DNA from: a virus
Length of the DNA stretch: 32,710 nt
IMG/VR virus record: IMGVR_UViG_3300017917_001967
Span: 1-32,710 of that record
Direction: 5' to 3' (one strand)
The translations under genes and the position numbers were made by a program. The notes beneath the pieces were generated by a model that was not told the DNA's origin, did not search any database, and worked only from the letters and a program-made list of their open reading frames with translations. This document shows, in pieces, positions 661-30,795 of the stretch; position 1 is the first letter of the stretch, and every line of letters begins with the position of its first letter.

Positions 661-690
661 TAACTATTTTGGGATAATGCATTGTTATTA
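661..690 (+). promoter_or_regulatory. Late-class promoter, portal operon
   Basis: TAACTATTTT at 661-670 and TTGTTATTA at 682-690 are separated by 11 bases. Both boxes and the spacing are identical to the site before the scaffold gene (30766-30795). It sits between a terminator and a start codon 29 bases downstream. The class is defined by five sites in this genome. Confidence 0.7.
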
Positions 691-719
691 TAAGATAACG
701 ACAAGATAAATTATACCTA

Positions 720-1073
720 ATGTTAGCTTATCACATATCTCAGTCTAATGCATTTGCCATTAGAACTGAACCAACTGCAAGTAATCAATATACAATGAGT
801 CTACAAGACATGTATACACTTGCAAATTCTACTATGTCAATGAGTGGAATCACTTATGACGGATATGAATCATTACTTCAATTCACTGCAAGTATTAGTG
901 GTGCATATGTAGGTGCAGAATATCGTGCAACCTTATATACATCAACAACTGATATATGGCATGGTTCAATCCAAGTTTATGCATCTGCATCAACAGATAA
1001 AACAGTATACGAAAACCAAATACCGCCAGTAACATCACACGCTAGCGAAAACAGATACATAATATTACAATAA
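720..1073 (+). CDS. Small structural protein of unknown function, first gene of portal operon
   Basis: This 117-residue protein has no signal peptide or membrane segment. The C-terminal half (about 50-117) is beta-rich: YESLLQFTASISGAYVGAEY, then a DIWHGSIQVYAS strand and ENRYIILQ. I recall similar short proteins near head genes in other Bacteroidota phages, but no function is known to me. It is the first gene after a late promoter, and its stop is followed after one base by the portal start. A minor head or tail protein is likely from context only. Confidence 0.75.
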   Translation: MLAYHISQSNAFAIRTEPTASNQYTMSLQDMYTLANSTMSMSGITYDGYESLLQFTASISGAYVGAEYRATLYTSTTDIWHGSIQVYASASTDKTVYENQIPPVTSHASENRYIILQ

Positions 1074-1074
1074 T

Positions 1075-2376
1075 ATGAAACAAGGACAAAAATTTGCAAT
1101 AGTAAATGTAAATAATAATCAACTTCCATTCATTACAGAAGATGCTAAAACACGTCAGAACTGGATACCATTTGGTGTTTACGGACATGATGACTTCTTT
1201 GATGCAGTAACAACTACATTCAATGTGTCAACTACAAACTCTGCATGTATTGAAGGTATTGCTGATTTGATTTATGGTAAAGGTGTATATTCTAAAAATG
1301 AAGTAAATAATAAATTACTTCAGAAGTTAATTCCACAAGAAGAAACTAAGAGAATTGCATTTGACTTAAAATTATTCGGTAATGCAGCATATCAAGTATA
1401 TTGGAATGATGACCATACACAAGTAATTAAATTCTATCACGTTCCTGTTCAATATATCAGAGCAGAGAAGTTATTGTCACATCCTAAAGTGCAAAACTAT
1501 TTTTATTGCACAGATTGGAATGACCAAAAGAAAATAAAAGAAAAGAAGAAGATACCTGCATTTGGAACATCAACTGAGAAGTGTGAAATACTTTACATTA
1601 AGAATTATACTCCAAATTTGTATTATTATAGTTTACCAGATTGGGTTTCTGCAATGCAGTTCTGTGTAAGTGAGGGAGAGATATCTAATTTGCATTTAAA
1701 TAACATTACAAACGGTTTCTTACCTGCAGTGATGTTGAACTTCAATAATGGAGTTCCTGCCCCTGAAGAGAGAGAAACTATCGAAGATTTAGTTCAAGCA
1801 AAATTCACAGGAACAGATAATGCAGGTAGATTTATGTTATCATTTAACGATGACCCAAATACTAAACCTACTTTGGACATTATTGATATTCCTAATTTGC
1901 ATGAGAAGTATGATTATGTTGCAGAATATACACAAGATAGAATCTTAGTTGCACATAGAGTAACTTCACCTTTATTGTTTGGTATTAGAACTAAGAATAA
2001 TGGTTTCTCTTCACAATCAGAAGAAATGAAAACTGCATTCTCTATTTTACAAACAATGACAATTGCACCATTCCAAAACTTAATCTTAAATGCATTAGAT
2101 TTAGCATTGACTGAAGGTGGATATGATGAAATGGAATTATACTTCGAACAATTAACTCCATTAGCAATTTTAACTGAACAAGCGGCAGATACTAATAAAT
2201 CAGTTGCACAAGTTGAAGATGAAACTAATAAAGCATTAGAGAATCCTGCAACTCAAGAAGAACCACAAGACCAAACAACTCAGGATACAACTTTAGAAGA
2301 AAGTATGTTACCTGAAACAAAATATAATATGCATTCAGCATTTTTTGAAAGAGAATACGAAATAATTAAAAAATAA
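1075..2376 (+). CDS. Portal protein
   Basis: A 433-residue protein that should form the dodecameric ring at the capsid vertex through which DNA is packaged and ejected, and to which terminase and connector bind. Supporting features are the family-typical length, an early segment DLIYGKGVYSKN, a central KLFGNAAYQVYW, and the late helical part with VAHRVTSPLLFGIRTKNNGFSSQSEE followed by a long helix (ILQTMTIAPFQNLILNAL), the order found in PBSX/HK97-type portals. The last ~60 residues are rich in E, Q and T and look disordered. The connector gene starts 4 bases downstream. The terminase large subunit is far away, because other genes separate packaging and head modules. Confidence 0.88.
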   Translation: MKQGQKFAIVNVNNNQLPFITEDAKTRQNWIPFGVYGHDDFFDAVTTTFNVSTTNSACIEGIADLIYGKGVYSKNEVNNKLLQKLIPQEETKRIAFDLKLFGNAAYQVYWNDDHTQVIKFYHVPVQYIRAEKLLSHPKVQNYFYCTDWNDQKKIKEKKKIPAFGTSTEKCEILYIKNYTPNLYYYSLPDWVSAMQFCVSEGEISNLHLNNITNGFLPAVMLNFNNGVPAPEERETIEDLVQAKFTGTDNAGRFMLSFNDDPNTKPTLDIIDIPNLHEKYDYVAEYTQDRILVAHRVTSPLLFGIRTKNNGFSSQSEEMKTAFSILQTMTIAPFQNLILNALDLALTEGGYDEMELYFEQLTPLAILTEQAADTNKSVAQVEDETNKALENPATQEEPQDQTTQDTTLEESMLPETKYNMHSAFFEREYEIIKK

Positions 2377-2379
2377 ACC

Positions 2380-2898
2380 ATGGCATACGCACTATTCATT
2401 AACAGAAACGATATCATTAAAAACACTCCGTTGCAAGGTGCAATAGATGCAGATGCATTGTTGCCATTTGTAAGAACTGCACAAGACAAATACTTAAAAA
2501 ATCTTTTAGGTACAGTTTTGTTTGGTTATTTACAAGAACAAATCGTTGCAAACAATGTAGATAATCTTTCTGTATATTATAGAGATTTGTTAGACGACTA
2601 TGTAAAGAATGCATTGATTTGGTATTCTGCAGTAGAATATATCCCATTTAGTTCTGTTCAATTTAAATCTAATGGTGCAGTTAAACAACAAAGTGAACAA
2701 GGTATTGCACCTGCTAAGGGTGAGATAGATTATCTTTTGACTAAAGCATTAAATAATGCTGACTATTATGCATTAAGATTACAAAACTATTTGATTGCAT
2801 ATTCACAACAAATACCTCAATACTTACAATCGGTTGGTAATCAAACTCAGATTTATCCTGACCAAAGTAATCAGTATTTTTCTGGTATTCAATTGTAA
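2380..2898 (+). CDS. Head-tail connector/adaptor protein (DUF6712-like)
   Basis: This 172-residue, mostly helical protein starts with INRNDIIKNTPLQGAIDADA and continues LLPFVRTAQDKYLKNLLGTVLFGYL, a pattern I recognise as the DUF6712-type head-completion family of Bacteroidota phages. The family has the helical-bundle character of gp6/gp15-type adaptors that dock under the portal. Its place immediately after the portal gene supports this. The role is inferred from family resemblance and gene order. Confidence 0.72.
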   Translation: MAYALFINRNDIIKNTPLQGAIDADALLPFVRTAQDKYLKNLLGTVLFGYLQEQIVANNVDNLSVYYRDLLDDYVKNALIWYSAVEYIPFSSVQFKSNGAVKQQSEQGIAPAKGEIDYLLTKALNNADYYALRLQNYLIAYSQQIPQYLQSVGNQTQIYPDQSNQYFSGIQL

Positions 2899-2903
2899 TA
2901 AAT

Positions 2904-3428
2904 ATGGGAACACCTTTAGTTACAAATACGAATGTAAATTATACAAATTACTATAATTTGGTAAACTTCTTTGCAGAGTTTATGTCAAATCACCCATCTA
3001 TTACACAAGTGAGTAATGAAGATATAGAAGATTTTGATGAAAGAGAATTTCCAAACTATCCAGTAGCGAATGTAACTATTCCAGGTACTAGATTTAGTGA
3101 TAATGAAACTTTATGGGATATACAAATCTTAATTGCTGATAAGTATAAGAACAAAAATAACGAAAGTAATCCTATAACCAACGAACAAACTATTTACTTT
3201 TATCAAGAAGAAGATAAGATGGATATTTGGTCAAACCTATTAGCAATTGCAAATGATTTAACTTCATTTGTTCAAAGAGGTGTAACTGGATTCGATGTTA
3301 TAGGTGATATTAAATGTATACAATTCCACGAAAGATTTGATTCTGGTTTAGCAGGATGGGTTGTGACATTTACACTTGCAACACACAATAATAAAAATAG
3401 ATGTTTATTCGAACTATACCCAAATTAA
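2904..3428 (+). CDS. Neck/tail-completion-like protein, paralogue A
   Basis: A 174-residue protein homologous over almost its whole length to the next gene. Shared blocks in order are a N-terminal YYN.. helix with NHP, the FP.YP.AN strand, K.KN.NNESNP, Y.. DDK/EDKMDI, DLTS..QRGV.GF, and a C-terminal ATHNNKNRCLFEL. The pattern alpha, beta, long loop, amphipathic helix, beta resembles tail-terminator or tail-completion proteins, and the position between connector and fibre agrees, but I cannot name a characterised homologue. Its stop is separated by one base from the paralogue's start. Confidence 0.7.
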   Translation: MGTPLVTNTNVNYTNYYNLVNFFAEFMSNHPSITQVSNEDIEDFDEREFPNYPVANVTIPGTRFSDNETLWDIQILIADKYKNKNNESNPITNEQTIYFYQEEDKMDIWSNLLAIANDLTSFVQRGVTGFDVIGDIKCIQFHERFDSGLAGWVVTFTLATHNNKNRCLFELYPN

Positions 3429-3429
3429 T

Positions 3430-4293
3430 ATGAGTCAAATAATACACAATACAGGAACTAACAATACGCTTTATTATAATGTAATAAACTATTGGAAAAC
3501 TATTATGGGTAATCATCCAGGTATAGGTGCTGCATCTATGGGTGATTTGTGGGATTTTGGTGAAAGACAATTTCCTCAATATCCTATTGCAAATATTCAG
3601 ATATTAGAAACTGATTTTGGAACATCAACATCTAATTTCAGATGTCAGTTAATGGTTGCAGATAAAGTTAAGAATAGAAATAACGAATCAAATCCGACTG
3701 ATAACCAACAAACAATACCTTACTATCAAGTTGATGATAAAGTGGACATATTTGCAAATACACTTGCAATAATCAACGATTTAACTTCATACACGCAAAG
3801 AGGTGTTCAGGGATTTGAAATCAATGATGACATTATATGCACTCCTTTTGCAGATAGATTAGATAATGGTGTTGCTGGATGGACTGCAGAATTTACATTA
3901 ACAACTCATAACAATAAAGACAGATGTTTATTCTTCTTAATTAATCCTTCAGGTAGTGGATATCTAATTCAGGATTGTATTACCGGAGATTACTACAAAG
4001 CAGTATTAAACGGAAGTGGAAGCATTGGACAAGTGTTTTCTGCACCTTATGTTTATCCAAATGCTCAGAACATCACTACTTCTTACGGAGTGAATTGTTA
4101 TACTATTATCAATACATTTGAGAATTCAGATGATTTTGATTTGGTGAATCTTCCAATATTACAAACACCAAGTTCTAATTTTGGAGATTGTCCTGAGTGT
4201 TTGAAATGGATTGCACCTCAAGTATGGGGAACAACATTTCAAAGTTGGAATTTACCACCAAACCAACCATATAAAACGTGGAATAAAGCATAA
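3430..4293 (+). CDS. Neck/tail-completion-like protein, paralogue B with extra C-terminal domain
   Basis: The start at 3430 lies one base after the upstream stop and begins at the region matching paralogue A; a longer reading from 3376 would overlap the previous gene by 53 bases. Residues 1-170 repeat paralogue A (NHPGIGA, FPQYPIAN, NNESNP, DLTSYTQRGVQGFE, TTHNNKDRCLFFL). Residues 171-287 form an additional domain with cysteines (DCITGDYY, GDCPECLKW) that paralogue A lacks. This is a tandem duplication in which one copy gained a domain. A tail-completion role is inferred; the extra domain could contact the fibre encoded immediately downstream. Confidence 0.72.
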   Translation: MSQIIHNTGTNNTLYYNVINYWKTIMGNHPGIGAASMGDLWDFGERQFPQYPIANIQILETDFGTSTSNFRCQLMVADKVKNRNNESNPTDNQQTIPYYQVDDKVDIFANTLAIINDLTSYTQRGVQGFEINDDIICTPFADRLDNGVAGWTAEFTLTTHNNKDRCLFFLINPSGSGYLIQDCITGDYYKAVLNGSGSIGQVFSAPYVYPNAQNITTSYGVNCYTIINTFENSDDFDLVNLPILQTPSSNFGDCPECLKWIAPQVWGTTFQSWNLPPNQPYKTWNKA

Positions 4294-4308
4294 AAAATTA
4301 AATATAAA

Positions 4309-7383: not shown

Positions 7384-7384
7384 T

Positions 7385-8500: not shown

Positions 8501-8508
8501 CAGAATAG

Positions 8509-8928: not shown

Positions 8929-8958
8929 CAATTATATTTTATTATTTTTTGGTTATTA
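8929..8958 (+). promoter_or_regulatory. Late-class promoter, tail-tip operon (divergent copy)
   Basis: CAATTATATT at 8929-8938, then 11 bases, then TGGTTATTA at 8950-8958. The boxes match the consensus at 7 of 10 and 8 of 9 positions with exact spacing, and the start codon is 17 bases further on. It lies in the only sizeable gap between 4.3 and 13.3 kb. It is the weakest of the five sites. Confidence 0.5.
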
Positions 8959-12158: not shown

Positions 12159-13310
12159 ATGCCACAACAGATACCTTTATATTTACCAACATTTATAAGT
12201 TCAGTTGATTACAAACCAGCTAGAGTTTTACCACATATTTATTTTTATAATGGTAAAATTGCATGTGAATCTTTTTATATTGAACATAGAGGAGATGGTG
12301 CACCTAATAATTTAATATATGCAAACACATCATCTGTATTTCCATATGTTGATAATTACAATGTAACAGGAAGCAATACATTTCCATCTATAAATTCAAA
12401 ATCATTATTATTTAATAATGAATCTTCAGTTTATGGAACTGCACCCACTGCATCTTTATATAATGAGTATTATCAAAAATATATTGAACTATTATATAAT
12501 CCAAAGACTAGATTATTTAATTGTTCTGCTATTATACCTTTTGCAGATTATAATGCATTAACATTAAATGATATAATAGAATGGAGAGGCAACTATTATC
12601 ATTTAAGAGCTATAAACAATTATAGTGTAAAAACTGGTGAATGTGATTTACAATTATTAGGGCCAATTATATTTGATACATTTGGGCAAATACCAAAAGC
12701 ACCACAAACATTTGGTGCAGTTAGTTGGAGTTATTCTGAATCCAATCAAGATGGACAATTTGTAATAAAAGATAATTCTACAACACTTGCAACATTAACT
12801 GCAAATGGAAGCGGAAGTGCAATAATATCTTCTTCTCACGTAATTTCAGCATCTATAACACCTGTAAATTATCCTACATCTTCATCTGTAACAATGAGTT
12901 TAATTGTGAATGGGCCTAATCCTACTTCACAAACTGTATATAATCAAAATACTACATTGAGTACTAGATTTACTGTAACATCTGGTAGTTTATATTCTAT
13001 TACTGCAAGTATCCAATTTAATTCTTCTTCGGTTGTATCAGGTTCATTACAATTAACTGAAAGATATGGATTTTCAAATTCACTTGATAATAGTGGTATA
13101 TGTTTAGTTGGTACTTCTTCTGCATGGGCAGTTCCTGGAGCTAGTTTATTTGACCCTGCTACATATATTTTTCAAGATGACCAAGGAACAACACCATTCC
13201 CTTACAACTATGTGATTGATAGATTATTTGGAAATGCACTTCCTGCACCTGTATATGGTTATAATTCAGGAAGTGGATTAGTAGGTGCACAGACTAGAAG
13301 TTGCTTGTAG
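12159..13310 (+). CDS. Tail-tip protein, companion of the hub candidate
   Basis: A 383-residue protein. Residues 95-170 contain EYYQKYIELLYNPKTRLFNC, then IPFADYNALTLNDIIEWRG and NYYHLRAINNYSVKTGECDL, a block I recognise as following the IPGT/AIRL part in other Bacteroidota phage tail proteins, sometimes in one polypeptide. The rest (170-383) is an S/T/N-rich beta domain that may be exposed. The gap to the previous gene is 10 bases, with an AAATAAAAT leader. The pair may be a natural split of one ancestral gene or simply two partners. Confidence 0.68.
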   Translation: MPQQIPLYLPTFISSVDYKPARVLPHIYFYNGKIACESFYIEHRGDGAPNNLIYANTSSVFPYVDNYNVTGSNTFPSINSKSLLFNNESSVYGTAPTASLYNEYYQKYIELLYNPKTRLFNCSAIIPFADYNALTLNDIIEWRGNYYHLRAINNYSVKTGECDLQLLGPIIFDTFGQIPKAPQTFGAVSWSYSESNQDGQFVIKDNSTTLATLTANGSGSAIISSSHVISASITPVNYPTSSSVTMSLIVNGPNPTSQTVYNQNTTLSTRFTVTSGSLYSITASIQFNSSSVVSGSLQLTERYGFSNSLDNSGICLVGTSSAWAVPGASLFDPATYIFQDDQGTTPFPYNYVIDRLFGNALPAPVYGYNSGSGLVGAQTRSCL

Positions 13311-13340
13311 TATAGATTAAAAATTAAATGTTATATTGAT

Positions 13341-13493: not shown

Positions 13494-15583
13494 TGGCTGA
13501 TAAAAAAGTAACCATAAAAGTTGATTTAGATGCAGAACCATCAATTGCACAATTAAGAAAATTAAAAGCAGCATTAAAAGAAACTGCAGCAGGTTCGGAA
13601 GACTTTAATAAAATTAAAGCTGCAATGAATGATGTTGAAGATGCTTTAAAATCTGCAAAAACAGGTGCTGATAACTTTGCTGAAATAGTTGGTGAATTAC
13701 CTGGACCTGTTGGTGAATTGGGTAATAAAGTAGGTGGAACAATTGCTACTTTAAAACAATTTGGTGGTATTAAATTAGATGCATTAAAGAATTCATTTAC
13801 CGAATTGGGTAAAGACTTAGTTGATGTTGGTAAAGGTATAGGTAATTTAACAGGTTTAAGTAAAGTATATACTGTTGCAACTAATGGTGCAAGTAAAGCA
13901 TTACAATTTTTTGGTGTATCTGCAGAAGGTGCAGCAACTGCATCAAAAACATTTGGACTTGCAATATCAGGTCTATTAGCAGCAACTGGATTAATTGCAT
14001 TAACTGCATTGATTCAAATGACTTCTGAAGCTTGGGAAAATTATTCTAAGAAAGCAGAAAGAGCAGAAGAAGCACAAAAGAAATTAAACGAAAGTTTATT
14101 AAAAGGTGCAAAAGCAGCATTAGATGCTGAAAGTGCATCTGTAAAAAGAACTGGTGATTTATTAGTTGCAGAAGCAAAAGCAAGAGGTGCAAATGCTGCA
14201 GAAATATATAAGATTGAACAACAAAATAGAAAGTTGTTACTACAATCACAAGAAAGATACTATAATGAATTAAAAGATAAAGATAGTGATGAGGCAAGAA
14301 GTGCTTTAAGCAATATTAAAGATACTCAGAATCAAATTAAAATTGCTGATGCTAATTTTAAGGCAGACCAATTAGAAAAAAATAATCAACATACTGCTCA
14401 AGTAACTCAAAAGAATCAAGAGGAATTAAAACAAATTGCTAAAGATAGAGAAGACGCTAGAATTAAATTATTAAGTGCTGAGGAAGCTGAAGTTGCAAAC
14501 ATTGAAAGAAATTATAAAGTAAAAATAGACCTTGCTAAAAAACATGGTGAAAATACAAAAGATTTAGAAAAGGCACAGGCTAAAGAAATAAAAGCAGTTA
14601 GAGATAGATATCGTAAAGACGAAAATGAGGCAATGAAAAAAGGCCTTATTGATGATTTACAAACTATAATAGATGGTAATAAAGAACAATACGAAAAAGA
14701 AAAATTACAATTAGATTTACAAAAAGCAAAAGGTTTAATTGATGAAGAAACATATCAACAAAGTTTATATGATATCAGAGTAAAATATGCAAACTCAGAT
14801 GCTGATTTAATTAATGCTCAAATAGATAATTTAAATTATTTAAGTGATAAGAAAAAAGATAATTTAGAAAAAGACAAAGAATGGGCAGATAAACAAAAAG
14901 AATATAATAAAGTAATTGCAGAAAGTTGGATAGATTTGGGTAGAACTACTGCAGACACATTTGCTAAGTTAGGTGGATTATTTGAAGAAGGTAGTGACGC
15001 TGCAAAAGCTTTTGGTATTGCATCTGTATTAATTGGTGCAGCAACTTCAATTGCACAAATTAATTTTAGATTTGCAGAAGGTATTGCAGATGCAAGAAGT
15101 ACAATTACTAAAGGTCAAGCAATTGCAGGACAAGGTTTATCATTATTGGGAAATCCTGTTACAGCTTTACTTGGTGCATCTATGATAACTTCAGGTACAG
15201 CTGGAGCTGGAGCAGGTACTGCATTATTGACAAAATTACAATTAAATAAAGGATTACAAATAGCCGGAGTAGTTGCAACATCTGCAGCACAAATTGCAGC
15301 AATTACATCTGCAAAAGGTAAGTCTGGAGGTGGTGCATCTTCAGGTGGTGGTGTAGATGCTGGTGCAACTGGTGCACCTGCACCTGTATATAGTGGAGCA
15401 GCAACATCAATGGCATCACCACAAATACAAACAACTAATGCTGTTAACCCATCTACTCAAATTGCACAAACTATAACTGGTGCAAGAGAACCATTGAGAG
15501 CATATGTAGTGAGTGGTGAGATTAGTTCAGCTCAAGCATTAGATAGAAGAACTAATAGAGCAGCAACCTTTAGTGGGGGATAA
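13493..15583 (+). CDS. Tape measure protein
   Basis: A 696-residue protein that sets tail length and lies inside the tube until ejection. It has a charged N-terminal helix (ITIKVDLDA-like start, then LRKLKAALKET), a hydrophobic segment at about 152-175 (AISGLLAATGLIALTALI), a long coiled-coil region (180-460, rich in K, E and A), a second small-residue hydrophobic part (about 495-590, with IASVLIGAATSIAQI), and a Gly/Ala/Ser tail. This order is typical of siphovirus tape measures. By the usual ~0.15 nm per residue the tail would be roughly 100 nm. That length is an estimate, not an observation. Confidence 0.92.
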   Translation: MADKKVTIKVDLDAEPSIAQLRKLKAALKETAAGSEDFNKIKAAMNDVEDALKSAKTGADNFAEIVGELPGPVGELGNKVGGTIATLKQFGGIKLDALKNSFTELGKDLVDVGKGIGNLTGLSKVYTVATNGASKALQFFGVSAEGAATASKTFGLAISGLLAATGLIALTALIQMTSEAWENYSKKAERAEEAQKKLNESLLKGAKAALDAESASVKRTGDLLVAEAKARGANAAEIYKIEQQNRKLLLQSQERYYNELKDKDSDEARSALSNIKDTQNQIKIADANFKADQLEKNNQHTAQVTQKNQEELKQIAKDREDARIKLLSAEEAEVANIERNYKVKIDLAKKHGENTKDLEKAQAKEIKAVRDRYRKDENEAMKKGLIDDLQTIIDGNKEQYEKEKLQLDLQKAKGLIDEETYQQSLYDIRVKYANSDADLINAQIDNLNYLSDKKKDNLEKDKEWADKQKEYNKVIAESWIDLGRTTADTFAKLGGLFEEGSDAAKAFGIASVLIGAATSIAQINFRFAEGIADARSTITKGQAIAGQGLSLLGNPVTALLGASMITSGTAGAGAGTALLTKLQLNKGLQIAGVVATSAAQIAAITSAKGKSGGGASSGGGVDAGATGAPAPVYSGAATSMASPQIQTTNAVNPSTQIAQTITGAREPLRAYVVSGEISSAQALDRRTNRAATFSGG

Positions 15584-15610
15584 TCATTTTTATAACTTAT
15601 AATGTTATTA
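15581..15610 (+). promoter_or_regulatory. Late-class promoter, protease/head operon
   Basis: TAATCATTTT at 15581-15590 (overlapping the tape-measure stop codon), 11 bases, then ATGTTATTA at 15602-15610. Matches to consensus are 8 of 10 and 8 of 9 with exact spacing. The protease start lies only 4 bases downstream, so transcription from here would give a leaderless or nearly leaderless mRNA. Confidence 0.55.
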
Positions 15611-16700: not shown

Positions 16701-17063
16701 ATGACATTTGTAGAATTTTTATCAGCATTGAATACTTGTAAACAACAATCAATATTCTGGCATAATCAAACTACTTCATTTAGTGAACATAAGGCATTGA
16801 ATCAATTTTATGATGAAATCGAAGGTCTATTAGATGGTTTAGTTGAATCAGTAGCAGGTATCTATGGTAGACCACAAGGATATGAAATGCATGATGTAGA
16901 AGATTGGACTTCAACTGAAGCAACTATTGAATACTTTAAGAAAGTATATCAAATGGTTCAAACTGAAAGAAAGACAATTTATCAAGAGACTTGGGTTCAA
17001 AATCAAGTTGATGAAATTGCACAATTAGTAGCATCTACTTTATATAAGTTGACATTAAAATAA
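16701..17063 (+). CDS. Ferritin/Dps-like helical protein (DUF5856-like)
   Basis: A 120-residue all-helical protein with FLSALNTCKQQSIFWHNQT, SEHKALNQFYDEIEGLLD and LVESVAGIYGRP, the pattern (helix, W-H-x-Q-T, S-x-H-K-A, D-x-L-V-E) of the phage DUF5856 family, which resembles Dps-like ferritins in helix layout. The H, E and D residues correspond to positions that bind iron in Dps, but metal binding here is unproven. Its stop overlaps the next start by one base (TAATG). Function in the virion or infected cell is unknown to me. Confidence 0.6.
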   Translation: MTFVEFLSALNTCKQQSIFWHNQTTSFSEHKALNQFYDEIEGLLDGLVESVAGIYGRPQGYEMHDVEDWTSTEATIEYFKKVYQMVQTERKTIYQETWVQNQVDEIAQLVASTLYKLTLK

Positions 17064-17681: not shown

Positions 17682-19007
17682 ATGTTGTATCTAAGAAATA
17701 CAAACCAACTTCAATCAACAGCTATAGATATTAAAAGAGGAACAACTAATTCTTGTTGTACTCCTACTTTGAATTCTGTAACTAGTGCATCTTTTACACA
17801 ATTAACAATTGACTCTTCTTTTGGAGTTTATTTAATAAATTGTAAAAGTTGTGTTGGTGGATATATTCAGGTAACAGAAGATAGTGGTTCTACATGGACT
17901 ACTATAAATCCAGGTAATTGTAGCACTACAAATTTAGTGCCAATGCCTTCTCAATCTGCATATTATAGAACATTCACATCTTGTTCTACAAACAATCAAC
18001 CGTTTGACCCATTAACATCTTCATTTAGTAATGAGATTTTATACATACCTAATTCTAGATTACATTATAAGTTTGATGAAAATTTAGGAAGTAGTAGATT
18101 TACTATTGCTGTAACAGGTAGTACAATATTAGATGCAACTGCATCTGTAACTGGTGATTTTTATGAGATTCCATCTGCATCTGCAGTTAGTGAATCTTTA
18201 CAAGTATTATCAGTTCCTTACACAGGATCTCTTTCAATGAGTTTGTTAATAACTGGAAGTAATGTATCTTATTATACATCATCTTGTGTACTTAGTACAT
18301 CATCTATTTTCATAGGAAGTTATAAAGCAATACCAAACGAAGATTATTACACAACTGCATCTATTGATTATAATCCAGGTAGACAAGATTGTGGAACAAA
18401 CTTATTACCTTATACAGTTTATTCATGTGATGTTGATAATCAAATATGGTATCCTGCAAATCAATGGGGAACATTTACATCTCAATCAACTAACTATGGA
18501 TTTATTACAGGAAGTATAACTAGAACAAATGTTGAAACAAATGATTGTAGATATAATGCATTGAGATTATCAGGATCTGCTACATTCCAATCAACACAAA
18601 CTGATACTATAACGATAAATGTAGTGACTGGTTCTGTTACTGCACAAGGTCTTTCAGATTTGACTCCTGGTGGTAGTCAATGGACTTTAACTGCAAATGC
18701 AGATTCATCATCATTTACATTCAATATAGGAAATACAAATTATGATTTAATTATTCCAGCTAGTGGAAGTTGTAAGAATAAATTATTATCTATAAGAGTT
18801 GAAGGTAATGTAGGTCCAGTTCCAACCAGTGGTAGATTTACTGCATATGTTAATGGAGTTAGTATAGGTACAGAAGATATTAATCAAATTACTACATTAG
18901 GTTCAACTTATATATTAAGTTCAAACAATGGTGCATTGAGAACACATGGAAATAATGTACCTGATTCTAACTGGATAACTCAATATAATTGTTATTACGA
19001 CTTATAA
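17682..19007 (+). CDS. Cysteine-rich structural protein, head-spike candidate
   Basis: A 441-residue S/T/N-rich beta protein with an unusual number of cysteines (about 15), including NSCCTPTL at 23-30 and INCKSCVGGY at 52-61, which gives way to isolated cysteines ending in QYNCYYDL. It lacks a signal peptide. Cysteine content sets it apart from the two tail fibres, which have essentially none. Location 11 bases after the spike-base-like gene suggests a head-exposed fibre or decoration, possibly stabilised by disulphides after lysis. No homologue is recognised. Confidence 0.65.
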   Translation: MLYLRNTNQLQSTAIDIKRGTTNSCCTPTLNSVTSASFTQLTIDSSFGVYLINCKSCVGGYIQVTEDSGSTWTTINPGNCSTTNLVPMPSQSAYYRTFTSCSTNNQPFDPLTSSFSNEILYIPNSRLHYKFDENLGSSRFTIAVTGSTILDATASVTGDFYEIPSASAVSESLQVLSVPYTGSLSMSLLITGSNVSYYTSSCVLSTSSIFIGSYKAIPNEDYYTTASIDYNPGRQDCGTNLLPYTVYSCDVDNQIWYPANQWGTFTSQSTNYGFITGSITRTNVETNDCRYNALRLSGSATFQSTQTDTITINVVTGSVTAQGLSDLTPGGSQWTLTANADSSSFTFNIGNTNYDLIIPASGSCKNKLLSIRVEGNVGPVPTSGRFTAYVNGVSIGTEDINQITTLGSTYILSSNNGALRTHGNNVPDSNWITQYNCYYDL

Positions 19008-19601: not shown

Positions 19602-19774
19602 CAAAATTAACAAAAACACAAAAGATAGTAATAACATTTGTAATTGTAACTGCAATTGCATTTTTAGTATGGGGATGTGGAACTGCAGTATCAACTGAAA
19701 TTAAAACTGACTCAACAATCAACGATACTACATTAGTTGACACATTAAAAGTTGATACAATTGGCAAAAAGTAA
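19598..19774 (+). CDS. Small lipoprotein, spanin candidate
   Basis: A 58-codon frame: basic start MTKLTKTQK, hydrophobic stretch 10-25 (IVITFVIVTAIAFLVW), then GCG with Cys27 as the likely lipidated residue, followed by a short polar T/D/K tail. The -2 tryptophan is unusual for a lipobox (LVWGC), so processing is uncertain. It starts in an ATGA overlap with the coiled-coil gene and is overlapped by the next gene. Outer-membrane lipoproteins of this size at the end of a late operon are often o-spanins that help disrupt the outer membrane. This role is inference. Confidence 0.6.
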   Translation: MTKLTKTQKIVITFVIVTAIAFLVWGCGTAVSTEIKTDSTINDTTLVDTLKVDTIGKK

Positions 19775-21272: not shown

Positions 21273-21304
21273 CTAATATACGACAAATATTTCAATTTAC
21301 CAAA
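21273..21304 (-). promoter_or_regulatory. Early-class promoter, minus-strand operon
   Basis: Read on the minus strand, TTTGGTA (21304-21298) and TATATTAG (21280-21273) have box starts 24 bases apart, the same as the three plus-strand early promoters. The ATPase start codon is 32 bases further on. The boxes resemble the Bacteroidota primary-sigma -33 TTTG and -7 TAnnTTTG elements. Confidence 0.75.
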
Positions 21305-21453: not shown

Positions 21454-21487
21454 TTTGGTATTATGGAAAAATTTTCTTATATTACAT
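21454..21487 (+). promoter_or_regulatory. Early-class promoter, replication gene
   Basis: TTTGGTA at 21454-21460, 17 bases, TATATTACAT at 21478-21487. Both boxes and the spacing recur exactly at 22227-22260. The DUF1376-type start codon is 28 bases downstream. Confidence 0.8.
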
Positions 21488-21515: not shown

Positions 21516-22016
21516 ATGGCAAAAGACCCAGCAGTTTTACTATGGACAAAAGATTTCCTAGTAGGAACTATGACAATGACAAATGAACAAGTAGGTAAGT
21601 ATATTAGATTATTATGCTTACAACATCAAAATCAATATTTGACTGATGGTGATATGAAAAGTATATTATCAGATGAAGATATTGTAATTGCTGAAAAATT
21701 TATAAAAGAAGATGGAAAGTGGTATAATATTAAAATGAAAGAAGAAACTATAAGAAGAAAAGCTTATACTGAAAATAGATTAAAAAATCTTCAGAAAAAG
21801 AAAGATATGAAAGTTAATATGGATTCCCATATGGAAAACCATACTGGAACTGTAACTGGAACTGGAACTGCAAATCTTGAACTTAAACTAGAAACTGTAA
21901 ATGTAACTAAAGCTGAAAGAGAAGATATATTAGCAGAAGCATTAACAGGTAGTTTAGATAAAGAGCAAAAACAAATAGCAAATAAGTTTGATAATATATT
22001 TGGAGATGTAAAATAA
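21516..22016 (+). CDS. DUF1376-type replication protein
   Basis: A 166-residue protein. The N-terminal ~80 residues (MAKDPAVLLWTKDFLVGTMT, NEQVGKYIRLLCLQHQNQYL, then DGKWYNIKMKEE) follow the DUF1376 pattern seen at the start of phage replication initiators and DnaT-like helicase-recruitment proteins, a winged-helix-like DNA-binding domain. A basic linker (RLKNLQKKKD) and a low-complexity TGTVTGTGT stretch follow, encoded by GGAACT repeats. The C-terminal helix could recruit a host helicase or the divergent AAA+ ATPase. The domain that would follow in a full initiator is missing or reduced. Confidence 0.75.
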   Translation: MAKDPAVLLWTKDFLVGTMTMTNEQVGKYIRLLCLQHQNQYLTDGDMKSILSDEDIVIAEKFIKEDGKWYNIKMKEETIRRKAYTENRLKNLQKKKDMKVNMDSHMENHTGTVTGTGTANLELKLETVNVTKAEREDILAEALTGSLDKEQKQIANKFDNIFGDVK

Positions 22017-22032
22017 ATTCAGTATATTACAT
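21999..22032 (+). promoter_or_regulatory. Early-class promoter, RNA gene
   Basis: TTTGGAG at 21999-22005 (inside the last codons of the replication gene), 17 bases, TATATTACAT at 22023-22032. The spacing is identical to the other early promoters. The -7 box is a perfect copy, while the -33 box differs in its last two bases. No start codon with a usable frame follows; a structured RNA and a terminator do. Confidence 0.7.
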
Positions 22033-22035
22033 TAG

Positions 22036-22198
22036 TCTGTTTTTGTTAATTATAAAATGAATGATATGTGTTATTCTCTATATGTAAGAACTTAATTAAT
22101 ACTCACAGCTATTCAGCATTTATGTAGAGTGTTCTTACGACACACATATTTAGGTCAGCAGGTTTTAAAGTGCCATTTAACTGCTGACCATTTTTTTT
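22036..22198 (+). ncRNA. Structured small RNA (~160 nt), no known family
   Basis: The stretch begins a few bases after an early-class promoter and ends in a strong terminator. It folds as nested helices: ATATGTGT (22064-22071) with ACACATAT (22142-22149), GTAAGAAC (22084-22091) with GTTCTTAC (22131-22138), ACTC (22101-22104) with GAGT (22127-22130), and GCT/AGC around an ATTC loop (22108-22117). The 5' side has large internal loops of 12 and 9 bases. No open frame of useful length is present. A long helix with asymmetric bulges superficially recalls 6S RNA, but no similarity can be claimed. A regulatory RNA or decoy is possible. Confidence 0.65.
22153..22198 (+). terminator. Rho-independent terminator of the RNA gene
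   Basis: GGTCAGCAG (22153-22161) pairs perfectly with CTGCTGACC (22181-22189), extended by TTAAA/TTTAA around a 6-base loop with a 3-base bulge, and is followed by A and eight Ts. It would stop transcripts of both the replication gene and the RNA gene. Confidence 0.93.
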
Positions 22199-22226: not shown

Positions 22227-22260
22227 TTTGGTAATATCAGAAATTTATTTTATATTACAT
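22227..22260 (+). promoter_or_regulatory. Early-class promoter, HNH-to-terminase operon
   Basis: TTTGGTA at 22227-22233, 17 bases, TATATTACAT at 22251-22260. It is an exact repeat of the boxes and spacing at 21454-21487. The first start codon (22280) is 19 bases downstream. No terminator is visible before 28.0 kb, so this promoter may drive about 5.7 kb. Confidence 0.8.
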
Positions 22261-22279: not shown

Positions 22280-22669
22280 ATGGCACAAAAAATAATTTGG
22301 AAAACTGTAAAATGGAAAGGAATTGAATTTCCTAATCATTTAGTATCAAACACAGGCAAAGTAGTCACATCCCACAAAATCGCTAGAAACAAAACAAAGA
22401 CACCTTTATTCGGAGATTATAGAGAGATGAGTTATAAAACTTCTAATAGAGGATATACCTCAGTTTATATTACTGCACCAGGCGGTAAAAGATATTACCC
22501 TAATTTGCATCAGATAGTATGGGAAAGTTTTAATGGTGAAGTCCCATCTAAATTAGTAATTGACCATTCTGATAATCAAAAGGATAACAATATATTATCC
22601 AATCTACAATTACTTACAAAGAAAGAAAATACAATCAAATATCACAAAGTAGATAAATTTAAAAAATAA
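22280..22669 (+). CDS. HNH endonuclease with NUMOD4-like N-terminus
   Basis: A 129-residue protein. Residues 7-30 (WKTVKWKGIEFPNHLVSN then TGKVVTS) match the NUMOD4 substrate-recognition motif. The HNH core comprises NLHQIVWESFNG (75-86), VIDHSDNQKDNN (93-104, with D95 and H96) and NLQLLTKKEN (108-117, with N108 and N117). All expected catalytic positions are present, so it is probably active. It may be a free-standing homing endonuclease or, given its small size and early position, a nicking enzyme. It is the first gene after an early promoter and is separated by one base from the next gene. Confidence 0.82.
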   Translation: MAQKIIWKTVKWKGIEFPNHLVSNTGKVVTSHKIARNKTKTPLFGDYREMSYKTSNRGYTSVYITAPGGKRYYPNLHQIVWESFNGEVPSKLVIDHSDNQKDNNILSNLQLLTKKENTIKYHKVDKFKK

Positions 22670-22868: not shown

Positions 22869-22869
22869 T

Positions 22870-23386: not shown

Positions 23387-23606
23387 TAAATACGCACCAT
23401 TAAACGAGCAAGAGTTCAATGAATTATCAGAATTTATTTTAAACTTAGGTGCATATCTTCCAGATAATAAAGCACCTTATGTTTGGGATATGTTCAATAG
23501 ATTAAGAGATGAAAATGAAAATAGACCTTGTACATGTGCATCATCTGCAGGACATTGGAAAAGAGCAGTTGACTATTTATTTAATTGGGTAAAAGAAAGA
23601 CAATAA
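23376..23606 (+). CDS. Small helical protein with CTC motif
   Basis: A 76-residue protein: acidic N-terminal helix (LNEQEFNELSEFILNLGAYL), then RPCTCASSAGHWKRAVDYLF and NWVKERQ. The P-C-x-C-x-S-x(2)-HW pattern followed by a C-terminal helix is familiar from small genes in other Bacteroidota phages, where function is unknown. The stop overlaps the start of the sigma-like gene (TAATG), so the two are probably co-translated. Confidence 0.6.
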   Translation: MENNKYAPLNEQEFNELSEFILNLGAYLPDNKAPYVWDMFNRLRDENENRPCTCASSAGHWKRAVDYLFNWVKERQ

Positions 23607-24157
23607 TGGAAACAGGCAGTTATCAATGTGAATGTGAAAGAAGATTAATTAATTTACATTCTGAATCACATAAATGGTTACTGAACTCAGCAAATAAAAT
23701 TACTCATAATAGAGAAGAGTCTGAAGATTTAGTGCAAGAACTTTACATATATTTGCATGAGAAATGTAATCCTAAATTATTTTGGGGAACTAATTCATAC
23801 AACTTATTTTACGCATCAAAGTTCTTGCACAGCAGATTCATCAACAAAACTAAGAAACTAAATCGGACAACCTTAGTAGATGAAGTATGGAGTAATGAAG
23901 AAGATATACCATATGATGAAGAGAGAGATTTACAAATTCAGAAAGCACATGATGAAGTAATCAATGAATTAAAGAAACTTTCGACAACTAGAATGTGGCC
24001 ATCGGCAAAGATATTTGAATTATATTGGATGTCAGATGATACATTAGATGAAGTAGCAAGAAAAATAAAGATAAGTAAATCAACAACCTTTTTAGCAGTA
24101 AAGAAAGTAAGAAGGTATTTAAAAGAAGTTATAGATAATCCATTTGATAATGTTTAA
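23606..24157 (+). CDS. Sigma-70-family-like transcription factor
   Basis: A 183-residue protein; the ATG at 23606 in the TAATG overlap is chosen over an upstream in-frame start at 23585. Residues 21-60 match sigma region 2 (SHKWLLNSANKIT then EESEDLVQELYIYLHE, comparable to the AEDLVQE(T/V)F motif). About residues 145-180 form a region-4-like helix-turn-helix (TLDEVARKIKISKSTTFLAV then KKVRRYLKEV). This two-domain layout is that of small alternative sigma factors. It lies in the early operon and is the natural candidate to read the five TAAyTATTTt-N11-TTGTTATTA sites before the structural operons. Binding is inferred, not seen. Confidence 0.72.
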   Translation: METGSYQCECERRLINLHSESHKWLLNSANKITHNREESEDLVQELYIYLHEKCNPKLFWGTNSYNLFYASKFLHSRFINKTKKLNRTTLVDEVWSNEEDIPYDEERDLQIQKAHDEVINELKKLSTTRMWPSAKIFELYWMSDDTLDEVARKIKISKSTTFLAVKKVRRYLKEVIDNPFDNV

Positions 24158-25456: not shown

Positions 25457-25578
25457 GGGATAAAATAAAGTCGTTAGGAAATTGGATTGATAGTAAAGAT
25501 GAAACAATAGTGCTCATTGTTGCATATCTCCTCACTATTGGATTATCTCTTTTAATTGAGGTATCTACTACAAAATAA
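25429..25578 (+). CDS. Single-helix membrane protein, holin candidate
   Basis: A 49-residue frame: basic N-terminus (MERKNTKGVGDKIKSLGNW), one hydrophobic segment at 26-44 (TIVLIVAYLLTIGLSLLIE) and a short polar end. It overlaps the DUF4338 gene by 28 bases. One transmembrane helix with a charged N-terminus fits a small class III holin or another inner-membrane protein. Holin is only a positional guess, because no endolysin has been found next to it. Confidence 0.55.
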   Translation: MERKNTKGVGDKIKSLGNWIDSKDETIVLIVAYLLTIGLSLLIEVSTTK

Positions 25579-25620
25579 AGTATGCGTTGTTAAATTAATA
25601 GTAAAATACAATTAAATACT

Positions 25621-27260: not shown

Positions 27261-27912
27261 GATACCTACTGATTGGTCTAGCGTAAGTCTAAAGAAATAC
27301 TTAGAATTACAAAAGGAAATCAAAAACTATGAAGGTGATGAAGATGCCATAACTGCACTTATGTTGATTCATTTGTGTGGAATTAATCCATATTTAATAG
27401 ACAAAATTAGTATTGATGGATTTAAACAAATAGAAGATGCATTGAATGGTTTTATTAATCAGACAAATTTGCCATTAAAAAGATTTATTACAATAGATGG
27501 TGTTGAATATGGATTTGAACCTAACTTATCTGAAATGTCTTATGGTTCTTATGTGGATATTACAAAATATGATACCTTTACAATAGACGATAATTGGGGC
27601 AAAATAATGTCAATACTATACAGACCAATTATAGAAAAGAAAGGTGAAAACTATAAAATAAAAAGATATACAGGTGATATAGATGATACTAAGTGGTTAG
27701 AAGTAGGAATGGATATACACTTAGGTGCCTTGTTTTTTTTTGCGAGTTTATTAAGGGACTTATTGAATTCTACCCTGAACTCTTTGACGGAGAAGGAGTT
27801 GGAACCAAACATGAAGCAAATTTTAGTAAAAAGTGGAAATCTTATCCAACGATTATCCAACTTGCAGGAGGAGACATTCAAAAAATTGATGAGGTCACCG
27901 AAGAACCTTTAA
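27244..27912 (+). CDS. Tail assembly chaperone-like protein, zero-frame product
   Basis: A 222-residue frame starting MELEIKIPTDWSSVSLKKYL then ELQKEIKNYEGDEDAITALM, a pattern I associate with tail-assembly-chaperone-like proteins of Bacteroidota phages. Up to residue 166 it is an ordinary alpha/beta protein. At that point lies a run of nine T (27733-27741). The zero-frame continuation (ASLLRDLLNSTLN...) is less convincing than the -1 frame, which stays open to 28004. Lambda G/GT and many other phages make two chaperone forms by frameshifting here. It is unusual that it lies after terminase rather than beside the tape measure. Confidence 0.72.
   Translation: MELEIKIPTDWSSVSLKKYLELQKEIKNYEGDEDAITALMLIHLCGINPYLIDKISIDGFKQIEDALNGFINQTNLPLKRFITIDGVEYGFEPNLSEMSYGSYVDITKYDTFTIDDNWGKIMSILYRPIIEKKGENYKIKRYTGDIDDTKWLEVGMDIHLGALFFFASLLRDLLNSTLNSLTEKELEPNMKQILVKSGNLIQRLSNLQEETFKKLMRSPKNL
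27735..27741 (+). promoter_or_regulatory. Probable -1 frameshift slippery site T-TTT-TTT
   Basis: In zero frame the nine Ts at 27733-27741 read TTT TTT TTT, so 27735-27741 fits the canonical X-XXY-YYZ heptamer. Slipping back one base after 27741 enters the frame TGC GAG TTT. A sequencing error in the run is the main alternative explanation. Confidence 0.65.
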
Positions 27913-28004
27913 GTAAATGTTTATTATATCTTGCATTCCAAGCAGATAAAAATAAGTTAGATGAGTTAATACATAATGATGCAATTGCAAAAATGAGGCA
28001 TTGA
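27741..28004 (+). CDS. -1 frame extension of the chaperone-like protein
   Basis: After the slip the frame encodes 87 more residues: CEFIKGLIEFYPELFDGEGV, KKWKSYPTIIQLAGGDIQKI, then DEVTEEPLSKCLLYLAFQAD, giving a fused product of about 253 residues. The composition (SKKW..Y-T-I-x-x-L-A-x-G-D-I then a C-terminal helix) looks like a genuine conserved protein end. An independent start at 27693 exists but would yield an unlikely N-terminus. The stop lies directly before a late promoter. Confidence 0.62.
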   Translation, partial: CEFIKGLIEFYPELFDGEGVGTKHEANFSKKWKSYPTIIQLAGGDIQKIDEVTEEPLSKCLLYLAFQADKNKLDELIHNDAIAKMRH

Positions 28005-28034
28005 TAATTATTTATTCTCCCTTTGTTGTTATTA
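28005..28034 (+). promoter_or_regulatory. Late-class promoter, fibre-2 operon
   Basis: TAATTATTTA at 28005-28014, 11 bases, TTGTTATTA at 28026-28034. Matches are 8 of 10 and 9 of 9 with exact spacing. The next start codon is 15 bases downstream, and the previous stop ends at 28004. Confidence 0.65.
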
Positions 28035-28049
28035 GTTTAAACACGATTT

Positions 28050-28322
28050 ATGGAACCAGGAGCAGGAATGTGGTCAAATAGTAGAAGTGGAAACTTAAGA
28101 TACTCTGTTAATAGAGAAAATCAAAGTGGTATCTATCTAGGGCCAACGAGAGGATTATCTTCACCTAAGAATAGTAGAAGAGCATGTTTATGTATACATT
28201 CTAACACATATAGTGTGAGATGTTGTCAGGGTGCATTGATTCAACAAGGTATTGGACAAATACAATCAACTGCACAGGCACAAGGTGGATTTGGACCTGG
28301 TTTTGACGAAGGATTTGATTAA
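28050..28322 (+). CDS. Small cysteine-motif structural protein
   Basis: A 90-residue protein: basic N-terminal part (SNSRSGNLRYSVNRENQSG), then RRACLCIHSNTYSVRCCQGA and LIQQGIGQI, and a glycine-rich end. The CLC...Y-S-x-x-CC-x-G-x-L-x-x-QGIG pattern is one I recognise from short virion-associated genes in Bacteroidota phages. It is the first gene of the late fibre-2 operon. The role is unknown; the four cysteines could form a metal site. Confidence 0.65.
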   Translation: MEPGAGMWSNSRSGNLRYSVNRENQSGIYLGPTRGLSSPKNSRRACLCIHSNTYSVRCCQGALIQQGIGQIQSTAQAQGGFGPGFDEGFD

Positions 28323-28340
28323 ATAAAACAATAATATAAA

Positions 28341-29957
28341 ATGTCTCAAATATCTAAACAAGCGTTAAAGGTAGACAACAATACCTCTTTCCCTAATAAT
28401 ACAACAGGATACATTTCTCCTACAATACTTAGAGGATTCAATACTAATATGATTGACTCTTTGGTAGATGAAATTACATTTACTGCATTCAGTAGTTCTG
28501 TAACATCTTCTATTCAGTTGTTAAATGCATATACTGCATCTATACAACCTTCATTTACTTCATTGAATCAATTTACTTCATCCCAAGAATTAACTAATTT
28601 GGGATTCACAACTCAAATAAGTTCATTAAGTGCAACTCAATTAAGTCAAGCAGGTGATATTGCTCAATTACAAACAACTGCATCTTTGACAAATGAAATT
28701 ATTTCAAGTAATGTTTCTTTGGGATATGCAAGAAGATTTAATTTTAGTGGATTTATTACTGCAAGTTTAGTGACAAATGTAGATGGAACTATTGCAGATA
28801 TCACTATGAATCAAGATGGAAGTAAATTAAATACATCTTCATTTAACGACTATACTGCATCAACTGCAGCAACTCAATCAGTATTTAGTGCATCAGTTGC
28901 AACTTCATTGTCAGCAAGTGTATATACATTTAACAAATATACTTCTTCAACAAATACATGGACTGCATCTGCACAAACATCAATAGACCAATTATTAAAT
29001 TTTAGTTCTTCATTAGATGCTACATTTGCAACAGATGCACAATTAAATGCTGCAACTGCAAGTTTAATAAATCAAATTGACACTAAATTAAATACATCTT
29101 CTTTTAATTCATACACACAATCACAAGAAGTATATAGTTCATCTGTTGGTAATATATTGAATGACTTAATATCACATACAGGAAGTTATGCAACTACTGG
29201 TTCTAATAACTTTGTAGGTAATCAAGTAATCACAGGTAGTTTATTAATATCAGGTAGTTCACAATTTGATTTAGATATTACAGGAGCAATGAAAGTTTCA
29301 AGTAATGATGGATTAGGTCAATCTACAATATCAGGAAACAATATTGGTGTAAATAATTCAAAAGGAACATCTGCAACATTCATACAAAATTATGGCCCAA
29401 CTGGAAGTAATGCAGGATTATATATGGGTGTTTATGATGACCCTAACTTTAATACAGATATAGAAACTGCAATTGTGGTAGATAGTAATGGTATTGCATT
29501 CAAAGATTGGGATAATGGAACTGTATTTGATTATGTAGATTGGTTAACAATTACACCGAATGTAGGAAATAATCCATCACCTAGATTTGTTAGAGGTTTA
29601 CAAATTACAGGTAGTGTATCTGTAACCGGTTCTGTTTATGGTAATATAAGTGCATTAACTATTTCTTCTAATAGTGCAAGTATGGATTTATCTAAAGGTA
29701 ATTTCTTTACTTTATCATTAGTATCTGGAAGTGCAACTCACTTAACTGCAACAAATATTAAACCTGGTCAAACTATAAACTTATTAATTACACAATCGAC
29801 TCCTGCAAGTGGAAGCTTAACTTATAACTCAACATTTAAATTCCCTGCTGGTAATTCTTATGTTGCAACACCAATATCAGGAGCAAAAGATATAATTACA
29901 TTTATTGCATACGATACTACAACATTATATGCAACATCAATTAATAACTTATTGTAA
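28341..29957 (+). CDS. Tail fibre 2
   Basis: A 538-residue S/T/N/A-rich protein, about half the length of fibre 1. After a distinct ~50-residue N-terminus (ALKVDNNTSFPNNTTGYISP) come shaft-like repeats (LNAYTASIQ, LNQFTSSQE, FNDYTAST, FNSYTQSQE). From about residue 284 it parallels fibre 1: TGSNNFVGNQVITGSL, KDWDNGTVF, GNNPSPRFVRGLQITGS, KGNFFTLSL, and a terminal SINNLL. The central part has a unique insert (GQSTISGNNIGVNNSKG). The shared end and tip-gene order make it a paralogue. The tip gene starts in a TAATG overlap. Confidence 0.82.
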   Translation: MSQISKQALKVDNNTSFPNNTTGYISPTILRGFNTNMIDSLVDEITFTAFSSSVTSSIQLLNAYTASIQPSFTSLNQFTSSQELTNLGFTTQISSLSATQLSQAGDIAQLQTTASLTNEIISSNVSLGYARRFNFSGFITASLVTNVDGTIADITMNQDGSKLNTSSFNDYTASTAATQSVFSASVATSLSASVYTFNKYTSSTNTWTASAQTSIDQLLNFSSSLDATFATDAQLNAATASLINQIDTKLNTSSFNSYTQSQEVYSSSVGNILNDLISHTGSYATTGSNNFVGNQVITGSLLISGSSQFDLDITGAMKVSSNDGLGQSTISGNNIGVNNSKGTSATFIQNYGPTGSNAGLYMGVYDDPNFNTDIETAIVVDSNGIAFKDWDNGTVFDYVDWLTITPNVGNNPSPRFVRGLQITGSVSVTGSVYGNISALTISSNSASMDLSKGNFFTLSLVSGSATHLTATNIKPGQTINLLITQSTPASGSLTYNSTFKFPAGNSYVATPISGAKDIITFIAYDTTTLYATSINNLL

Positions 29958-30760
29958 TGAGATTTACACCAACGGCTTTTTATGGTTCACAATTAGGACA
30001 AACATTAGTTGCAACTTTATCAGGAGCAGGTGCAACATCTGGTTCTTTTACTTCCGGTGGAATAAATTATGGATATATTAAATTTACATCAGGCAGTTAT
30101 ACATTAAATGTAACTACTGGTGCTGAAATTGATATGTTAATAGTTGGTGGAGGTGCAGGTGGTTCAGTAATTAGTGCACAAGGTAGTAAAGGTGGTGGAG
30201 GAGGAGGTGTTTACACAACTACGACTAGATTATACAAAGGAAGTTATAGTGTATTAGTAGGAGCAGGTGGTTCCGTTAATAATAATGGTATAAGTTCTTC
30301 TATATCTGCATATGGATACAATTATTATGCAGAAGGTGGTAATTCAACAGGTGAACAGGGTATACCAATAGGATATCCTGCAGGTATGGATGGTCCTGTA
30401 TGTAGTGGTGGATTAGATTTTGGACATGGTGGAGGAGGAGGTGCAGCTGCAAGTGGTTCAAATGGATTTTGTAGTGGTGCAAATGTTGGACAAGGTGGTG
30501 CAGGTGGTGAAGGTTTAACTTATAACTTTGATGGAACTCCATCTGTATATGGTTCCGGTGGTGGAGGTGGTGGAGGTATCTTAGTTGGTGGTAATGGAGG
30601 TGCTGGAGGAACTAATGCTGGAAATGGTGGTGGATTTTCAACAGGTCCTACAAACGCAATAAATGGATATGGTGGAGGTGGAGGTGGAGAAGCTTCTACT
30701 AACACAGGTGGTGCAGGTACTGGTGGACATGGTATTGTCATAATAAGATACAGATTATAA
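29957..30760 (+). CDS. Fibre-2 tip protein, glycine-rich (polyglycine-type)
   Basis: A 267-residue protein starting MRFTPTAFYGSQLGQ. Residues ~60-260 are extremely glycine-rich (LIVGGGAGGS, KGGGGGGV, GHGGGGGAA, GSGGGGGGG, YGGGGGGEAS) and end GGHGIVIIRYRL, the usual finish of glycine-rich phage and surface domains. Such stretches can fold as a polyglycine-II sandwich, known from the gp38 adhesin of phage S16, with variable loops binding the receptor. It is translationally coupled to fibre 2. The N-terminus resembles that of the fibre-1 tip. The receptor-binding role is inferred. Confidence 0.78.
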   Translation: MRFTPTAFYGSQLGQTLVATLSGAGATSGSFTSGGINYGYIKFTSGSYTLNVTTGAEIDMLIVGGGAGGSVISAQGSKGGGGGGVYTTTTRLYKGSYSVLVGAGGSVNNNGISSSISAYGYNYYAEGGNSTGEQGIPIGYPAGMDGPVCSGGLDFGHGGGGGAAASGSNGFCSGANVGQGGAGGEGLTYNFDGTPSVYGSGGGGGGGILVGGNGGAGGTNAGNGGGFSTGPTNAINGYGGGGGGEASTNTGGAGTGGHGIVIIRYRL

Positions 30761-30765
30761 AAAAA

Positions 30766-30795
30766 TAACTATTTTTCAAACAACCTTTGTTATTA
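30766..30795 (+). promoter_or_regulatory. Late-class promoter, scaffold/capsid operon
   Basis: TAACTATTTT at 30766-30775, 11 bases, TTGTTATTA at 30787-30795, identical in both boxes and spacing to 661-690. The scaffold start is 21 bases downstream. A small ACCTTT/AAAGGT dyad (30783-30800) overlaps the second box and could be an operator. Confidence 0.72.

Follow-up and report, generated by a model that had tools for sequence, protein, structure and literature searches.

Within the window, that is, the whole 32,710-nucleotide stretch of DNA analysed here (a 32.7-kb virus record whose gene content, with portal, tape measure, protease and terminase, is siphovirus-like), a pair of short boxes recurs in the gaps ahead of structural genes. 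This raises the question of whether the boxes form a promoter class of their own and, if so, which factor would read it.

The two-box element and its positions

A sequence-only reading had listed five copies of the element, before the portal, tail, protease, fibre and scaffold/capsid genes, and all five exist (first five rows of Table 1). As it claimed, GTTATTA is invariant and the gap between the boxes measures 11 bases in every one of them, with the copies at 661 and 30766 being identical in both boxes. The left box, given as TAAyTATTTt, is present but looser than written (CAATTATATT at 8929 and TAATCATTTT at 15581). The placement of each site in the gap before a structural operon also holds, with the qualification that the box at 15581 starts on the stop codon that ends the preceding tape-measure gene. 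The list itself was incomplete, lacking a variant ahead of the small terminase gene, a weak leaderless candidate and a site ahead of a small RNA (Table 1). Thus, the statement that the element stands before every structural operon is correct, the packaging (terminase) operon having to be added, and the statement that none precedes early genes is true for protein genes only, since a non-coding RNA in the early region has a site ahead of it.

The late boxes are distinct from the TTTGG/TATATTA class, as had been proposed, and it is this host-type class that precedes the early operons on both strands (Table 1). The primary sigma factor of Bacteroidota recognises promoters with TTTG at -33 and TAnnTTTG at -7 (TTTG-N19-TAnnTTTG), a pattern that the late boxes (TAACTATTTT and GTTATTA) fail to meet and that is found instead, in its host-type form, at the early operons. 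No earlier description of the late element was found in the literature searched, which left most subscription journals outside its coverage, and the same search gave nothing relevant on late promoters of Bacteroidetes, Flavobacterium or crAss-like phages.

Two further matches in the window were rejected. The one at 18968-18997, within the 3' end of gene 17682, was considered a chance match, with 0 of 25 relatives supporting it upstream of gene 19086, and no gene arrangement backs a promoter reading of a minus-strand match at 19605-19634 (13.7 bits). As a separate observation, the late protease operon contains a DUF5856/phrog_858 (starvation-inducible regulator) gene at 16701-17063.

Table 1. 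Predicted promoters and associated features of the window. Percentages are the relatives scoring above 12 bits upstream of the homologous gene.
Feature	Position	Strand	Details
Predicted late promoter, portal operon (gene 720)	661..690	+	-35-like box TAACTATTTT at 661-670, -10-like box TTGTTATTA at 682-690; predicted start about 695-696; 92% of 83 relatives
Predicted late promoter, tail gene 8976	8929..8958	+	GG sub-class, TTGGTTATTA with AATACTTTT-like left box; 89% of 35 relatives
Predicted late promoter, protease gene 15615	15581..15610	+	Start codon 4 nt past box, predicted leaderless mRNA; 85% of 20 relatives, median distance 4
Predicted late promoter, gene 28050/fibre operon	28005..28034	+	93% of 54 relatives
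Predicted late promoter, scaffold/major capsid operon (gene 30817)	30766..30795	+	96% of 83 relatives
Predicted variant late promoter, small-terminase-like gene 25621 and large terminase	25565..25595	+	CTACTACAAA-N12-TTGTTAAAT, spacer one base longer; window score 8.9
Weak candidate late promoter, gene 13341, ahead of tape-measure gene	13307..13336	+	TGTTATAT box, 4 nt from gene 13341, leaderless; window score -2.7
Predicted late-type promoter of small non-coding RNA	22047..22076	+	Matrix match in early region
Predicted host-type promoter, operon holding sigma gene	22227..22256	+	TTTGG-N19-TATATT, by pattern
Predicted host-type promoter, early gene 21516	21454..21483	+	By pattern
Predicted host-type promoter, early ATPase gene 21240	21275..21304	-	By pattern
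RNA polymerase sigma factor of ECF type, proposed to read the boxes	23606..24157	+	183-184 residues; profile and fold
Predicted small RNA	22081..22198	+	Hairpin 22084-22138 (stem, 9-nt 5' bulge UUAAnnAAU, stem); intrinsic terminator 22153-22198
Dyad ACCTTT-GTTATT-AAAGGT	30783..30800		Centre at the -10-like box; seen at the scaffold/capsid promoter alone

Conservation of the element in related phages

Scans with the capsid, portal and sigma proteins gathered 226 related loci from uncultured viral contigs, some of them sharing one contig. These relatives are likely, although not proven, to be a family of uncultured aquatic Bacteroidota phages, and a Bacteroidota, flavobacterial host is held with the same reserve on three grounds: the distantly related phage P12024S infects a marine flavobacterium, a contig from a Polaribacter metagenome-assembled genome (MAG) was recovered, and the sigma factor matches a Bacteroidetes-type ECF profile. 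In the search for a host, scanning cellular genomes with the portal identified none, and the capsid gave only this Polaribacter MAG contig (major capsid protein 41%). The gap at the portal-side gene of the Polaribacter-associated relative has no such box, which indicates that the promoter class is confined to part of the lineage; another distant relative, G006, gives a poor promoter score. Apart from the promoters, one 62.6-kb contig (G004, with loci L024, L055, L247 and L250) carries a pair of distinct capsid genes, a second sigma gene besides the first and the small RNA in at least two copies, being either two related genomes joined together or a misassembly. A minus-strand tRNA gene, absent from the window, lies near the sigma region in two other relatives (L263:1771-1841 and L265:1294-1365).

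When the window was scanned with the two-box pattern, three perfect matches and five with at most one mismatch were obtained, the expectations from 300 dinucleotide shuffles being 0 and 0.03; with three mismatches allowed, the pattern became too loose to discriminate (12 matches versus 5.8 expected). Because the pattern had been fitted to these five sites, held-out matrices from the relatives were also used. A matrix trained solely on the relatives' sites before genes 720 and 30817 placed 30766, 661, 28005 and 15581 as the top four positions of the window, although 28005 and 15581 (the latter ranking fourth) had no part in its training set. Similarly, when each site was scored with its own gene held out, 661, 30766, 28005, 8929 and 15581 ranked 1, 1, 1, 3 and 1, respectively, among about 65,000 non-site positions.

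The two boxes are rigidly spaced. When a two-box model was fitted upstream of each of four genes on its own, the offset being left free between 19 and 24, it returned 21 bases start to start in 232 of 234 relatives' sequences, whereas the spacing of the second box from the start codon varies from 4 to over 40. In addition, the 120 bases upstream of homologues were scored against a threshold of 12 bits for the 42 of 44 window genes with at least three homologues. Seven gene starts carry the motif: the same five genes named by the sequence-only reading, in 85-96% of genomes, gene 25621 in 46% of 80 relatives (as the variant TAACTACAAA-N12-GTTA) and gene 13341 in 40%, where 6 of 15 relatives score 12 or more with the same 4-nt distance. 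The other 35 testable genes, early genes included, gave 0% above 12 bits in these 120 bases, the sigma gene's own upstream region had the motif in none of 63 homologues, and control stretches within genes were at 0% nearly everywhere. No third conserved box was seen upstream of the left one. Since the relatives have common ancestry, conservation cannot be counted as independent in each of them. The boxes, their rigid spacing, their placement and their conservation can be considered established at the level of sequence. Accordingly, of the earlier proposal of an undescribed late promoter in Bacteroidota, what stands is a promoter-like element that marks late (structural and packaging) operons; its activity as a late promoter remains an inference, and the phylum is likely but not proven.

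An ECF-type sigma factor as the candidate reader

The most likely reader of the late boxes is the phage's own ECF-type sigma factor, although this is inferred and no in vitro data support it. That the window encodes such a factor rests on protein comparisons. The ECF sigma model TIGR02937 matches all 37 aligned homologues at E 0.01 or better (best 4.8e-13), as does the Bacteroidetes ECF model TIGR02985 for the same 37; the window protein itself scores 38.8 bits with TIGR02937, below the curated trusted cut-off of 42.9, and is matched over its full length (residues 24-175 of 184). The AlphaFold model has two helical domains with a flexible linker between them, and its best Foldseek matches are the ECF sigmas SigL/SigH in initiation complexes. 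Profile coverage, domain architecture and fold matches concur on the presence of regions 2 and 4. Each of the nine relatives that reach at least 30 kb has the gene, and tblastn gave no match in cultured phages. An AAC in the -35 and a GT in the -10 element are typical of ECF promoters; the left box has AAC and the right box GT, 22 bases apart.

It is considered highly probable that the two boxes act as a -35 and a -10 element in late promoters that the phage ECF-type sigma reads with the host core polymerase, with the reservation that expression, primer-extension and in vitro data are all lacking. In the proposed circuit, the host's RNA polymerase, carrying the host primary sigma, would first read the promoters of TTTG/TAnnTTTG type, among them that of the sigma operon at 22227, a position expected for an early or middle regulator. 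The phage sigma would then join the host core polymerase, its region 4 reading TAACTATTTT and its region 2 reading TTGTTATTA, so that RNA would start 11-12 bases past the G of GTTA. This would switch on the terminase, fibre, scaffold/capsid, portal, tail and protease operons together with the small structured RNA. Timing and start sites, like the reading of the boxes, are inferred.

A distant cultured relative, Nonlabens phage P12024S (L267; portal 33% and capsid 27% identity), provides a parallel. Its gp33, annotated with sigma-70 region 2 and ECF-like by family profiles, lies upstream of terminase, and is linked to the window sigma by gene order, family profiles and hhalign (E 8e-8). Reading of intergenic gaps and a pattern scan revealed AAAACA-N15/16-CGTTAA seven times, at operons for structural and packaging genes (gene starts 179, 3031, 5412, 21280, 23961, 25201 and 26802), and the scan found none on its minus strand. 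What P12024S/L (Inhavirus) have in common with the window is thus an ECF-like sigma encoded ahead of terminase, boxes placed at the operons for structure and packaging, and a GTTA core; they differ in the -35 box, which is AAAACA and not TAACTATTTT, and in that all seven sites stand 11-12 bases before an ATG. As a side observation, all seven predicted late mRNAs of P12024S would be leaderless, starting from the A of ATG. The family matrix fails to find its motif in P12024S, only the GTTA core being common to both, and the literature searched holds no description of P12024S/L promoters.

The predicted start of the late transcripts is supported by three landmarks found 11-12 bases after the G of GTTA, namely the A of the leaderless protease ATG in the window and its relatives, the ATGs behind the seven P12024S sites and the first base of the small-RNA hairpin. 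Their agreement fits the right box as a -10 element and opposes the notion that only the left box is a -10 element, with the right one being a conserved 5'-UTR element (a translation signal or an RNA-protein site). The latter could draw support from the closeness of the right box to many start codons and from its inclusion in a covarying, RNA-foldable dyad at the scaffold operon. However, a right box is also found ahead of a non-coding RNA, it is rigidly spaced to the left box and not to the start codon, and upstream of the left box no third conserved one is seen; the translation signal was rejected on this evidence, and the 5'-UTR explanation as a whole is very improbable. To ascribe the boxes to a host alternative ECF sigma, leaving the phage sigma with another purpose, is improbable too, even if flavobacteria encode many ECF sigmas and the phage protein resembles Bacteroidetes ECF profiles. 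Against it, no near-complete relative lacks the phage sigma, P12024S encodes a counterpart at the corresponding place on its map, and the window and P12024S lineages diverge in their -35 boxes just as they do in their sigmas.

Two boxes 11-12 bases apart would also suit an activator site next to a -10 element, as in the T4 MotA middle promoters, the host primary sigma then acting with a phage activator bound to the left box. Yet GTTATTA is unlike the TAnnTTTG -7 element used by the early genes of the same genome, and no MotA-like gene was recognised while an ECF sigma is present, leaving this arrangement scarcely credible. Finally, the relaxed pattern is common, as would be seen if the sites were chance or compositional artefacts of an AT-rich genome, a notion refuted by the held-out tests, the 0% at 35 other genes and the rigid spacing in relatives, and whose remaining probability is negligible. 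The phage ECF-type sigma accordingly remains the favoured reader.

Late promoters served by phage-encoded sigma factors are already known from phages 7-11 and phiEco32 (PMC8948821). The sigma gp47 of Salmonella phage 7-11 is described there as acting at late promoters GTAAtg-(16)-aCTA, with starts 6-9 bp from the element, whereas the sigma gp36 of E. coli phage phiEco32 uses a single box, tAATGTAtA, and drives middle and late genes via host polymerase (PMC8948821). Phage 7-11 shares with the window a phage-coded sigma with region 4, a bipartite promoter before late genes and host-type early promoters, but is an unrelated podovirus of a gammaproteobacterium with other box sequences, and the text consulted mentions neither leaderless starts nor a small RNA (PMC8948821). 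phiEco32 likewise has a phage sigma driving late genes through host polymerase, but with one box, no region 4 homology and a second factor, gp79, that inhibits host sigma70 transcription (PMC8948821). The window shows two features of the 7-11 type, a phage-encoded sigma with regions 2 and 4 and a bipartite element of fixed spacing before late and not early operons. By this analogy, it would work like 7-11 in an unrelated phage lineage with most likely flavobacterial hosts, sigma use and start sites being only predicted.

What is new here is the promoter sequence, the phylum, the leaderless starts and the small RNA, promoter activity being only predicted. If true, Bacteroidota phages would thereby gain one of their first complete, predicted circuits of early and late transcription; these phages are abundant in water and gut, but little is known of how they control their genes. 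With the motif, late operons can be annotated from sequence in uncultured genomes, and an ECF-type sigma is tied to a target list at once, with the cultured relative P12024S/L available for testing the prediction. It also exposed a structured RNA family without an Rfam entry under the same predicted control.

The scaffold dyad and the predicted small structured RNA

The dyad at the scaffold/capsid promoter is absent from the other promoters. Its arms reach at least 5 in 47% of 78 relatives, versus 7% in flank shuffles, and compensatory changes are seen among the relatives. Because half of the repeat would stay untranscribed if transcription starts as predicted, the dyad is more likely to be an operator than an RNA hairpin, although an operator is only a possibility.

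Sites equivalent to the one at 22047 occur in relatives, where what comes next is a hairpin with an intrinsic terminator and no gene. A search with a covariance model built on this hairpin found 46 copies, with matches in 13 of 17 family genomes. The aligned copies show strong covariation of the stems (99.8% paired; score 0.82 versus 0.22 when shuffled and 0.15 or less when slid) and a nearly constant 9-nt bulge, UUAAnnAAU, with the caveat that the seed was chosen partly by pairing and by promoter, and that the alignment (A7) was fitted to the model. A late promoter at 8 bits or more accompanies 35 of 39 copies (1.1% of random places), the G of GTTA lying 11-12 bases ahead of the hairpin in most. 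In several relatives the RNA is on the strand opposite to the genes, indicating an independent gene. A host-type TTTG/TAnnTT promoter is also present at 19 of 37 copies (control 5%), overlapping the -35 box in some (window 21999-22076), and three copies (L169, L188 and L193) combine poor late boxes with a well-placed host-type promoter. Given these host-type promoters at about half of the copies, the RNA may be made early too.

No match to the RNA, and no known RNA family, was found in Rfam. RNA model R1 found nothing in P12024S/L and no match in 80 Flavobacteriaceae genomes, where it lacked a positive control. The 6S-Flavo RNA (RF01685) resembles the phage RNA as a small, bulged hairpin occurring in Flavobacteriaceae, but has another sequence and structure and is larger (108 model positions); its model gave no match at the gathering score or at E up to 10 in the window and two relatives, while 15 of 16 control Flavobacteriaceae genomes matched. 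That the RNA is a new phage family binding RNA polymerase holoenzyme as a 6S-like promoter mimic, helping the switch from host to phage sigma or limiting late transcription, is a function merely proposed, and on balance an unlikely one. The gap that follows the RNA (22280-22669) forms a hot spot of homing endonuclease genes, HNH or GIY-YIG-like, which differ among relatives.
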